From positions 1 to 23,167 of the IMG/VR virus record IMGVR_UViG_3300001349_001572: DNA of 23,167 nucleotides. One strand, given 5' to 3'. Made by a program: the position numbers and the translations under genes. The notes below the pieces were generated by a model. The model did no database searches and was not told the DNA's origin. It saw nothing but the letters and a program-made list of their open reading frames with translations. The first letter of the stretch is position 1, and every line of letters begins with the position of its first letter. The stretch is from a virus. Positions 8,238 through 14,662 of the stretch are shown piece by piece.

Positions 8238-8293
8238 CTAGTGAGTAACTTCAGGATTTAACCTTCTTCGTCATCGCCTTCGAGACCAAAGCT
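8232..8293. repeat. Direct repeat copy 1 (gene tail plus terminator edge)
   Basis: 57 of 62 bases match 8876-8937. It covers the edge of the terminator hairpin, the stop codon and the last 11 codons of the 183-aa gene. The same copy lies at the end of recA. Confidence 0.9.
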
Positions 8294-8883: not shown

Positions 8884-8937
8884 AGTGAGTAACTTCAGGA
8901 TTCAACCTTCTTCATTCTCGCCTTCGAGACCAAAGTT
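8876..8937. repeat. Direct repeat copy 2 (recA tail plus terminator edge)
   Basis: This is the partner of 8232-8293 at an offset of 644 bp. It covers the last codons and stop of recA and the edge of its terminator. Confidence 0.9.
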
Positions 8938-10202: not shown

Positions 10203-10443
10203 TGTTTACTCCTTCGTTTGTGTTAATAGTTTTGGTTGAAGTCGGTGTGACTTCTGTCTTAGATTCTCCAGATGTGCTATCATCAGCATCTTTAGAAACT
10301 TCGACTGCATTGTCTGTAGTTGCCTCATCAATTGTCTCCAAGGTCTTTGTCTCAACAACTTGAGTTGTCGTAGTTGCGGTTGTCACTTCTGTTGTGACTT
10401 CCTGTTCTCCGCAAGCGAAGAGCATTGTTAATAGTAACGTCAT
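10195..10443 (-). CDS. Thr/Glu-rich lipoprotein, 82 aa
   Basis: The start ATG at 10443 has AGGAGG 4 nt upstream and overlaps the clpP stop by 4 nt. MTLLLTMLFAC gives a lipobox (LFAC, Cys11), again with a minimal signal and no basic residue. The mature chain starts CGEQEVTTEV and is rich in Thr, Glu, Val, Asp and Ser, without Cys or aromatic residues, so it is probably disordered. It is similar in design to the next gene and may be a divergent duplicate. The two lie between clpP and recA, which is an odd place for envelope proteins. Confidence 0.8.
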   Translation of the reverse strand: MTLLLTMLFACGEQEVTTEVTTATTTTQVVETKTLETIDEATTDNAVEVSKDADDSTSGESKTEVTPTSTKTINTNEGVNND

Positions 10444-11051
10444 GTTACCTCCTGTAGGTTTATATCTAATTTTACATTTATCTCTAATCTTGGCATTCCA
10501 ACTTTGTCGGCAATACCAAGGTCAATTGCTTCTTTGGCCTCGATGAACCAGTCCGATCGGCCTTTCTCGTTTAACTTCTTATTAAACCACTTCTCTGACT
10601 TGTTTGAGTTTTCTGATAAGATTTTATAAATCTTGTCATTCAATCTCTTTACTTCTTCTGCACTTGCTTGAATCTCCGAGTTCTTACCCCATGAGGCTGA
10701 ACTTACATCGTGGATCATCAAAGTTGCGTCCTCTGTGATGTAGCGATGACCCTCATCTCCACAAGAAAACAGAATGACTCCACAACTCATCGCCTTGCCC
10801 TCTACAATCGTTGCAATTGGCAGCTCCGAGTTTCTTATCGAAGCAATCATGCTCATGAGAGAGTAGACTTGCCCGCCATACGAGTCAATAATCACTGGGA
10901 TTATCTTTTGACCTGTATTGTGGGCTGTGGCAATTTTGTCTGCAAACTCTTTTGCTGATTTCTCATCAAACTTGTTAACCCTAATAACAACAGGGTTATG
11001 TCTCAATTCTACAACTTTCAGGTTGTGATCGAGTGTCGTCTTCCATAACAT
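10440..11051 (-). CDS. ClpP-like serine protease
   Basis: The 203-residue protein has the ClpP fold order: PVIIDSYGGQVYSLMSMIASI (52-72, the oxyanion-type GG), catalytic Ser89 in GKAMSCGVILFSCG, His114 in LMIHDVSSASWG and Asp182 in GIADKVG. AMSC replaces the usual AASM around the serine. Phage ClpP-like enzymes often act as prohead proteases, but here the gene lies with replication genes and no capsid gene is near, so regulatory proteolysis is also possible. The start at 11051 has AAAGGAG 5 nt upstream. A perfect hairpin lies just before it at 11073-11092. Confidence 0.88.
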   Translation of the reverse strand: MLWKTTLDHNLKVVELRHNPVVIRVNKFDEKSAKEFADKIATAHNTGQKIIPVIIDSYGGQVYSLMSMIASIRNSELPIATIVEGKAMSCGVILFSCGDEGHRYITEDATLMIHDVSSASWGKNSEIQASAEEVKRLNDKIYKILSENSNKSEKWFNKKLNEKGRSDWFIEAKEAIDLGIADKVGMPRLEINVKLDINLQEVT

Positions 11052-12878: not shown

Positions 12879-12916
12879 AAAAAAGCCGCCCCTTTTTGTA
12901 ACCAAGGGCGGGCGGC
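12879..12916 (-). terminator. Intrinsic terminator after the SSB gene
   Basis: GCCGCCC (12910-12916) pairs with GGGCGGC (12885-12891) on the minus-strand RNA, followed by a run of six U. It should separate the highly expressed SSB from the downstream GHKL gene. Confidence 0.88.
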
Positions 12917-12939
12917 AATTCCCTACAACACAGGAGGAA

Positions 12940-13713
12940 CTATTCTTCGCTCATGAATGCTGCGAAGGCTTGATCTACACTCTCACCGGTTTGTTGCTTA
13001 CCACGTTGAGTCTCTGACGAAGAGGCTTCTGCTGAAGTGTCGGAGGACAAGTAACCATCCAACAGAGCCTGAACTTCTTCAGTTGTCTTAACATCAAACA
13101 ACTTGTCGATGTCTGGGACAGAGTCTACTAATTGTTGACAATCAGCAATTGCATCATCACACAACACAGATGGTCGTCGGCGAGGCTGCAAGCCTGTCTT
13201 TGGGAAGGCTCCAGGGCCTGATGCCAAAGTGTAAGTCAACTTAATATCTGTTCCAGTTTCAACATCGGTAATGTCTCCATAGTCAGGATCCAACACGTAA
13301 CCCAAAAGGGCTTCATATGCAGTTTTTCCATAAGCCCAGATTTTTACACCATCAGCTTCATGACCACGGATAAGAACCGGTGAATAGTAGCGCTTTCGAG
13401 CGAAGAGCTTTTTGGCTTCATTTTTAAGGTTTTGGTCATCAGATTGAGTACCTTCCCGCCAAAGTTTTGATGCGAAATCACAGATAGCGCATTCGCCGTT
13501 GTCATTACGTTTATTGCAGTAAATTCCAGGATTCTTTCCTACGTTGTAGTGAAAGTGGAACTCACGGAACGGATCGCCATCCGCTGTGGGTAAAATTCGG
13601 ATGTTCTGGTCACCAGCAGATGGTTTCCACATGGTAGAATTTCTACCAGTTCCTTTTTTACCGTTTTTTGATTGATCGAGCTTCGCTCGCATTGCTTCTA
13701 TATTAATAGCCAT
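12940..13713 (-). CDS. gp32-like single-stranded DNA-binding protein
   Basis: The 257-residue protein coats ssDNA at the fork. It has the T4 gp32 plan: a basic N-terminal LAST-like segment (KLDQSKNGKKGTGRN), then a core with a zinc site His53-x12-Cys66-x8-Cys75-x2-Cys78 (EFHFHYNVGKNPGIYC...CAIC), nearly the H-x12-C-x9-C-x2-C spacing of gp32. WAYGKTAYEALLGYV and PGAFPKTGLQP follow. The acidic C-terminus after about residue 215 (SSDTSAEASSSE...AFAAFMSEE) is the usual partner-binding tail. The start at 13713 has TAGGAG 6 nt upstream. It has its own promoter (13816-13844) and terminator (12879-12916), consistent with high independent expression. Confidence 0.92.
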   Translation of the reverse strand: MAINIEAMRAKLDQSKNGKKGTGRNSTMWKPSAGDQNIRILPTADGDPFREFHFHYNVGKNPGIYCNKRNDNGECAICDFASKLWREGTQSDDQNLKNEAKKLFARKRYYSPVLIRGHEADGVKIWAYGKTAYEALLGYVLDPDYGDITDVETGTDIKLTYTLASGPGAFPKTGLQPRRRPSVLCDDAIADCQQLVDSVPDIDKLFDVKTTEEVQALLDGYLSSDTSAEASSSETQRGKQQTGESVDQAFAAFMSEE

Positions 13714-13815: not shown

Positions 13816-13844
13816 AATATAACATGTTTTGGTTTGCTTGTCAA
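13816..13844 (-). promoter_or_regulatory. sigma70-like promoter of the SSB gene, with dyad and A-rich leader
   Basis: TTGACA (13839-13844), 17 nt, TATATT (13816-13821), TGT before the -10. TGTTATA/TATAACA (13805-13811 and 13818-13824) forms a dyad over the -10 and start. The roughly 95-nt leader (13714-13809) ends in an A-rich, weakly structured stretch before the ribosome site, a layout used for gp32 autoregulation in T4. I infer the same possibility here. Confidence 0.88.
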
Positions 13845-14104: not shown

Positions 14105-14174
14105 ACAACCTCCTGTTTCAAATCTCACGAATTCAGCTTCCAAGGTTCTCTTATGAAAGATTACTAGTCGTGAG

Positions 14175-14204
14175 AAAAAAGGCGGTCTTTTGAAAGGAGA
14201 CCAC
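14175..14204 (-). terminator. Hairpin unit 3 with U-run
   Basis: GTGGTCT pairs with AGACCGC (one G-U) on the minus strand, followed by CUUUUUU. It is the last transcribed of the three related units and could act as an intrinsic terminator. A further 8-bp inverted repeat (TCTCACGA/TCGTGAGA, 14123-14130 and 14168-14175) follows before the 31-aa ORF. Confidence 0.65.
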
Positions 14205-14234
14205 AAAACCTTTTATCAGCCGAGGAGGTTCGAT

Positions 14235-14264
14235 AAAAAAAGCGGCCTTTTGAGAGGTAGCCGC
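14235..14264 (-). terminator. Hairpin unit 2 with U-run
   Basis: GCGGC pairs with GCCGC around a 13-nt loop ending CAAAAG, followed by seven U on the minus strand. AGGTTCG before it and CGAACCT after it (14226-14232 and 14264-14270) can also pair, offering an alternative fold. Confidence 0.68.
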
Positions 14265-14292
14265 GAACCTTCTTATCAGTCAAGGAAAACAG

Positions 14293-14321
14293 GCCGCCTT
14301 TTGGTAGGTAGCGGCAAACCT
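14293..14321 (-). ncRNA. Hairpin/pseudoknot unit 1
   Basis: GCCGC pairs with GCGGC around a 13-nt loop with ACCT and CAAAAG. The upstream AGGT can pair with the loop ACCT. The following U stretch is interrupted (CTGTTTT), so termination would be weaker than in units 2 and 3. Confidence 0.6.
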
Positions 14322-14335
14322 TCAACCTTGGAGTT

Positions 14336-14602
14336 TTAGAACAATCGAATGCTTACATCACGAGATGAACTCGAGATGATTCCAATTTGAGTATTGGAGT
14401 TAAATGTGCGGTATTGTTGACGATCAATGTCCCACACGGTTTCATAGCCGGCTTTTAAGTTTCGTTCACGTAATGTCATGGGGAATACACCATCTGGTGC
14501 TTCTGAAATGCGAACAAAGTTCATTGTTCGTTGTTCTCCACGTTGTGTTACGAAAGTCCCGGTGTGTACGGTCATAGTGTTTGTGTTGTTTGTATTTGTC
14601 AT
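14336..14602 (-). CDS. Small protein, 88 aa, DUF2693-like
   Basis: The start ATG at 14602 has GGGAGG 4 nt upstream and follows the promoter at 14634-14662. An Asn/Thr-rich start (TNTNNTNT) is followed by MTVHTGTFVTQRGEQRTMNFVRI, then YETVWDIDRQQYRTFN and IGIISSSSRDVSIRLF. The pattern of a short beta protein with 'F-T--G--RTMNF' and 'V-D-----RTFN' reminds me of phage DUF2693 proteins (SH3/WYL-like small beta folds). This is recall and weak. Its own promoter suggests strong early expression. The structured RNA begins a few bases after its stop and is probably on the same transcript. Confidence 0.78.
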   Translation of the reverse strand: MTNTNNTNTMTVHTGTFVTQRGEQRTMNFVRISEAPDGVFPMTLRERNLKAGYETVWDIDRQQYRTFNSNTQIGIISSSSRDVSIRLF

Positions 14603-14633: not shown

Positions 14634-14662
14634 AATATAACATAGTTTTGATACCTTGTCAA
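14634..14662 (-). promoter_or_regulatory. sigma70-like promoter of the 88-aa gene
   Basis: TTGACA (14657-14662), 17 nt, TATATT (14634-14639), extended TGT, with an A/T tract upstream of the -35. Confidence 0.88.

Follow-up and report, generated by a model that had tools for sequence, protein, structure and literature searches.

Genes and promoters of the locus

The window, a 23 kb stretch of an IMG/VR virus record, carries a T4-like DNA-metabolism block on the minus strand, with genes for UvsX, a DnaB-type helicase, ribonucleotide reductase, ThyX, a PolA-like polymerase and a gp32-like single-strand DNA-binding protein (SSB), all in the minus orientation. Just upstream of gp32 lies a small gene of 88 codons, and three related RNA units occupy the gap between the two genes. 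A fourth element of the same kind lies behind gp32 itself (Table 1).

Table 1. Features of the SSB locus, in window positions; sequences are written 5' to 3' on the minus strand
Feature	Position	Strand	Details
Sigma-70-like promoter of the small gene	14634..14662	-	TTGACA-17-TATATT; consensus match only
88-aa gene	14336..14602	-	stop at 14336; 3'UTR carries all three units
Unit 1 pseudoknot	14293..14321	-	AGGT-TT-GCCGCT-ACCT-ACCAAAA-GGCGGC; S1 AGGT(14321-14318)/ACCT(14309-14306); S2 GCCGCT(14315-14310)/GGCGGC(14298-14293); tail CTGTTTT to 14286
Unit 2 pseudoknot with T7 tract	14235..14270	-	AGGT-TC-GCGGCT-ACCT-CTCAAAA-GGCCGC (14270-14242); S1 AGGT(14270-14267)/ACCT(14258-14255); S2 GCGGCT(14264-14259)/GGCCGC(14247-14242); T tract 14241-14235
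Unit 3 pseudoknot with CTTTTTT tail	14175..14213	-	AAAGG-TTTT-GTGGTCT-CCTTT-CAAA-AGACCGC (14213-14182); S1 AAAGG(14213-14209)/CCTTT(14197-14193); S2 GTGGTCT(14204-14198)/AGACCGC(14188-14182)
Sigma-70-like promoter of gp32	13816..13844	-	TTGACA-17-TATATT; consensus match only
gp32-type single-strand DNA-binding protein gene	12940..13713	-	PHROG 1192 and Pfam gp32 (PF08804); start at 13713
gp32 3' pseudoknot with T6 tract	12879..12924	-	S1 AGGG(12924-12921)/CCCT(12908-12905); S2 GCCGCCC(12916-12910)/GGGCGGC(12891-12885)

The product of the small gene is predicted to fold into a small beta-barrel (AlphaFold2, 43 homologues, pLDDT 82). The structures nearest to this model are WYL domains, with Sm/Hfq-like rings ranking lower; as all Z scores stay below 6, the match is graded weak and the resemblance to WYL/Sm-like domains is suggestive only. 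The protein had no match in a profile search against the PDB or in NCBIfam.

The two promoters of Table 1 belong to a set of four near-identical TTGACA-17-TATATT promoters (window 14900, 14815, 14662 and 13844, minus strand), in each of which TG precedes the second hexamer. The gp32 5' leader (about 13783-13740, minus) is conserved across relatives and apparently structured, reading GGGRCGGGATGAAAAA-TAGCCTGYC..ACCTTAG with changes on paired sides, and is a candidate autoregulatory operator. Elsewhere in the window, a gene for a Clp-protease-like protein (Pfam CLP_protease; 10440-11051, minus) is flanked by a 600-aa gene and by a pair of small frames resembling lipoproteins. Two further genes, one ending at 8258 and a UvsX-like one ending at 8902, share near-identical 3' ends (ATCCTGAAGTTACTCACTAGCCCCTT...) with terminator hairpins (8257-8200 and 8901-8840, minus).

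Architecture of the three units

Each of the three units is an H-type pseudoknot in the 3'UTR of the small gene, with the order S1a-L1-S2a-L2-S1b-L3-S2b followed by a U tract. L1 is short and U-rich, L2 measures 0-2 nt, S2 is GC-rich and L3 is A-rich. We read the units on the minus strand, as all genes here lie on it and the loop lengths are those of a classical H-type knot on that strand only. In this orientation, all elements listed by an earlier sequence-only reading are present, including the H-type topology with an A-rich third loop; that reading had missed the position of the units in a 3'UTR, as well as the pseudoknot of gp32. S2 alone is predicted to contribute -8.5 kcal/mol in units 1 and 2 (ViennaRNA), and S1 stacking would add about -6.6 kcal/mol to the S2 hairpin, a figure that leaves out pseudoknot penalties.

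In the spacers of the tandem array (about 14241-14209, minus), pairing is possible between the T tract of one unit and the A tract ahead of the following one, as TTTTATC/GATAAAA here and as TTACC/GGTAA in another lineage, which represents a possible alternative fold.

The compact H-type fold and the A-rich third loop had earlier brought preQ1-I aptamers to mind. A riboswitch-like sensor of this type is nevertheless extremely improbable: the units follow a stop codon, in the 3'UTR of the 88-aa gene, instead of forming the 5' leader of a queuosine-related gene, their unpaired conserved core is limited to the A-rich L3, and the 0-2 nt of L2 leave no known ligand pocket. The preQ1-I covariance model of Rfam was not matched, with no preQ1 match at E up to 10 and no match to preQ1 or any other riboswitch at gathering score. 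Across all Rfam families, there was likewise no match at gathering score, and E values up to 10 added chance-level matches alone.

Conservation and covariation of the units in relatives

Homologues were collected from viral contigs of IMG/VR by a degenerate pattern and through relatives of gp32 and of the small gene, yielding 59 distinct regions that follow the small gene, most of which extend to gp32. The number of units ranges from 1 to 3 in close relatives, which does not fit the single three-unit domain proposed earlier; their place is invariably downstream of the small gene. The 9-bp inverted repeat thought to close the set (TCCAAGGTT/AACCTTGGA) is present in the window and in L085, but is not conserved elsewhere. 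Five relatives (L009, L010, L018, L093, L100) have other sequences in place of its 5' side (among them CCGTTGGTT and CCTGTTGAC) and a largely unchanged 3' side, and the repeat is therefore not a conserved helix.

The pairings within the units are maintained. Among 30 distinct small-gene units, S2 is paired in all 180 of 180 cells (100%), and four of its six pairs change on both sides, in agreement with the earlier remark that its bases differ between units yet keep pairing. S1 was parsed element by element, since the MAFFT alignment puts it off by one base in some rows; in this way at least 4 pairs were found in 30/30 units. The AGGT/ACCT and AAAGG/CCTTT pairings noted in the window extend to homologues with compensatory variants, from AGGU/ACCU to GGGU/ACCC (L112, L114) and AGGC/GCCU (L007, L121). 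In eight units with the shifted register AAGG/CCUU the inner pair is lost, and an outer A-U pair substitutes for it in all eight.

Downstream of the small gene, a pseudoknot score of at least 24 is reached in 33 of 58 relatives, compared to 3.4 expected from dinucleotide shuffles; the score is a plain sum of pair weights, the contigs are metagenomic and the sequences are related to each other. Distant relatives build the same topology from other sequences, for example CGAG-UUA-GGGGAU-CUCG-UCAAA-AUCCCC in L043 and GCGG-UUUUU-GGGAAGUUU-CCGU-AAA-AAACUUCCC in L057. The AU-rich distant cases L016 to L025 look similar by eye, fall under the threshold and were left out of the counts. Outside the small-gene sites, the R1 covariance model gave just weak scattered matches in 20 records. 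The units have been kept as pseudoknots while almost every paired base changed. The three units are real, and the pseudoknot structure itself is close to certain.

An independent pseudoknot at the end of gp32

The knot at the 3' end of gp32 follows the same design in a single copy and is independent of the three units. Its S1 reads AGGG/CCCU in the close clade, and other relatives have very different stems. Scores of at least 24 occur in 79 of 89 regions downstream of gp32, against 3.5 expected in shuffles, and scores of at least 30 in 65, against 0.2 expected. When upstream segments were swapped among loci (500 permutations), an S1 score of at least 9 was obtained at 28 sites on average and at 39 at most; the actual sequences reach it at 63 of 68 sites. 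In an alignment of 26 sequences, 8 pairs show double changes, compared to 3.7 in shuffles and far fewer when the alignment is slid, and the pair-count tool finds 47 cells changed on both sides (15 in shuffles). Mapped on the gp32 tree, the S2 state changes about 51 times and the S1 state about 25 times, the latter being an upper figure because a few labels rest on doubtful parses (L039, L051, L057, L071). Both crossing stems are thus backed by compensatory change, as expected of an H-type pseudoknot.

Behind gp32 (12941-12928, minus), the stretch CCTCCTGTGTTGT is nearly invariant among close relatives. A CCTCC(T) motif similar to the 16S rRNA 3' tail occurs repeatedly, both immediately ahead of the knots and in the loops of spacer hairpins.

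T tracts and downstream neighbors

At least 5 T within a 6-base window follow the gp32 elements in 52 of 79 cases, with 4.2 expected. A GC-rich stem and a T tract downstream of a gene are the hallmarks of an intrinsic terminator, and a minority of the elements have no T tract. In L043, L045 and L057, the element behind the small gene stops 9-19 bases short of the following TTGACA-like promoter box; in L005, L006, L090, L097 and L100 its T run abuts the 5' end of a tRNA-Arg (anticodon UCU). The T run can also abut the tRNA-like RNA described below.

Some loci retain the knot without the tract, several of them where the next gene is presumably co-transcribed. This is the case for gp32 in L020, L027, L028, L032, L038, L052 and L055, and in four of these (L028, L032, L038, L052) a ribosome-binding site and ATG directly follow the knot. 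The small-gene knot persists without a proper T tract in L012, L113, L114 and L120, where another gene, with its ribosome-binding site and start codon, lies downstream. That the knot outlasts the loss of the T tract is the main argument for a role of its own beyond termination.

The tandem copies and the T tracts after most units could be read as ordinary tandem intrinsic terminators, with the pairing of the loop to upstream sequence as a by-product. Such an origin is unlikely, as S1 is kept far above the permutation level with both sides changing in step and loci without a T tract still have their knots; the covariation of S1 largely refutes it. Ribosomal recoding by the knots was also considered and rejected, since they lie at different distances from the stop codon and no slippery site is conserved.

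A small conserved frame of 31 aa (14104-14009, minus) separates the knots from the tRNA-like RNA. It is preceded by an AGGAGG site, opens with the hydrophobic sequence VLILIITLLVS and ends in a TAG stop codon that includes the first base of that RNA. The tRNA-like RNA is conserved and spans about 84 nt (window 14009-13926, minus; L163:4764-4847, L017:2264-2347 and others). It has a 6-bp acceptor stem, a D-like hairpin with GG, a canonical T loop and a third arm of 6 bp (CTAACG/CGTTAG or CTGATG/CATCAG), in which a loop of 18-25 nt replaces the anticodon loop. Acceptor and third arm covary. It is undetected by ARAGORN and Rfam, and in a 273-kb contig it closes a tRNA cluster. Its presence downstream led us to consider a tmRNA, which was rejected on a negative ARAGORN result and the lack of a conserved tag frame.

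A proposed role at the 3' ends of SSB-locus messages

We propose with moderate confidence that the pseudoknots form the 3' ends of the SSB-locus mRNAs, acting as intrinsic terminator and 3'-exonuclease barrier in one. Three units would end the message of the 88-aa gene and the fourth, independent knot that of gp32. Once the polymerase has passed S2 and enters the T run, S2 would close as the terminator hairpin, and S1 would lock its loop to the sequence just upstream. On the released RNA, the knot would be a compact block against host 3'-to-5' exonucleases, so that the very abundant messages of this locus would last long. Termination, exonuclease blocking and the effect on abundance are what we infer from the structures and their placement. 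Where transcription has to continue into a tRNA or another gene downstream, the T tract may become weaker or vanish while the knot stays, and a knot of this type would protect the upstream part of a longer transcript. Tandem terminators had been one of three functions guessed earlier, and they fit best of the three.

Several observations speak against the 3'-end reading. In relatives that carry tRNAs, a strong terminator would keep transcription from reaching them, and no separate promoter for these tRNAs can be seen. The gp32 terminator of T4 is a plain hairpin. Moreover, convincing knots in the two long relatives G001 (184 kb) and G002 (192 kb) are found at the gp32 locus only, which a general 3'-end device would not predict. 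Genome-wide, S1-type pairing at T-tract hairpins is no commoner in these two than by permutation or shuffling. A more lenient scan gave a few other places, and those inspected are ordinary hairpins split by the scanner. Pseudoknots as a general feature of this phage's terminators can be rejected on this chance-level frequency. The SSB genes of SPO1-like (Goe10), nickie and T4 end in plain hairpins.

The confinement of convincing knots to two neighboring genes leaves room for recognition by gp32 itself. As the main rival explanation, the phage's own gp32, or the small WYL/Sm-like protein, could recognize the knots, binding its message at the 3' end and regulating the decay or translation of that message. 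We hold this possible, though doubtful. It would be in keeping with the gp32 of T4 and RB69, which nucleates on a pseudoknot (PMC535899, PMC3014915), and with the small-protein model, whose nearest WYL/Sm-like barrels, weak matches at Z below 6, include some that bind ssDNA or RNA. However, the T4 knot lies in the 5' leader, from where binding spreads to the start codon, whereas the present ones lie behind the stop codon, and their stem and loop sequences diverge widely. An extended form of this idea, which we put forward tentatively and think rather improbable, is a locus-specific RNA code in which gp32, the small protein or both read the 3' knots of the two messages and set their lifetime by free SSB. 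If true, such a code would be the 3'-end counterpart of T4 gp32 pseudoknot autoregulation, in which the copy number of 1-3 units would serve for tuning.

Tandem H-type knots of variable number have a phage precedent in the pseudo-ToxI repeats of PhiTE, which neutralize a host type III toxin-antitoxin system (PMC3475682). That the units are a ToxI-like RNA antitoxin mimic, acting on the endoribonucleases of such systems, is very unlikely. T tracts follow nearly every unit, the S1 and S2 sequences are free to vary, and gp32 ends in a single copy of the same design. No toxin gene was recognized among the scanned window proteins, and the next large gene downstream of the array is gp32. ToxI gave no Rfam match at E up to 10, a comparison of limited sensitivity since the models are without pseudoknot.

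The preferred reading remains that of an mRNA 3' end. The elements occur in a large group of uncultured viruses of bacteria, where the knots are likely both to form the 3' ends of these messages and to shield them. Intrinsic terminators are usually treated as simple hairpins, and the phrases we tried returned no paper on a pseudoknotted terminator in the searched literature. Here one phage lineage has retained a second, crossing stem across an inferred 25 or so changes of S1, which makes a role of pseudoknots in termination efficiency or mRNA 3'-end shielding in bacteria testable.

Comparison with known systems

Like intrinsic (Rho-independent) terminators, the elements combine a GC-rich stem with a downstream T run and lie between a stop codon and the next promoter. 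They differ from these in the second conserved stem, which locks the loop to upstream sequence, and in the persistence of the knot at loci that have lost the T tract. The proposed role, blocking 3'-to-5' decay of the upstream message, is that of REP/BIME-type 3' stabilizers; the present element is a locus-specific pseudoknot and not a palindrome. ToxI-family antitoxin RNAs and the pseudo-ToxI of PhiTE are likewise tandem H-type pseudoknots of variable number in phage, whereas the present knots have T tracts and no Rfam match, are tied to mRNA ends and also occur in single copy after gp32.

The closest parallel in terms of genes is the leader pseudoknot of T4 and RB69 gene 32, also an H-type knot that belongs to gp32 in a large phage. 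In T4, gene 32 mRNA is the most stable mRNA of the phage (PMC3014915). The T4/RB69 knot lies 5' of the gene, upstream of the start codon, and controls translation, whereas the knots described here lie 3' of both stop codons, those of gp32 and of its neighbor, and come with T tracts; the 3' end of T4 gp32 is a plain hairpin, unlike the present gp32 knot. A second pseudoknot, at the 3' end, is thereby linked to gp32, a gene known from T4 as a classic example of autoregulation through a 5' pseudoknot.
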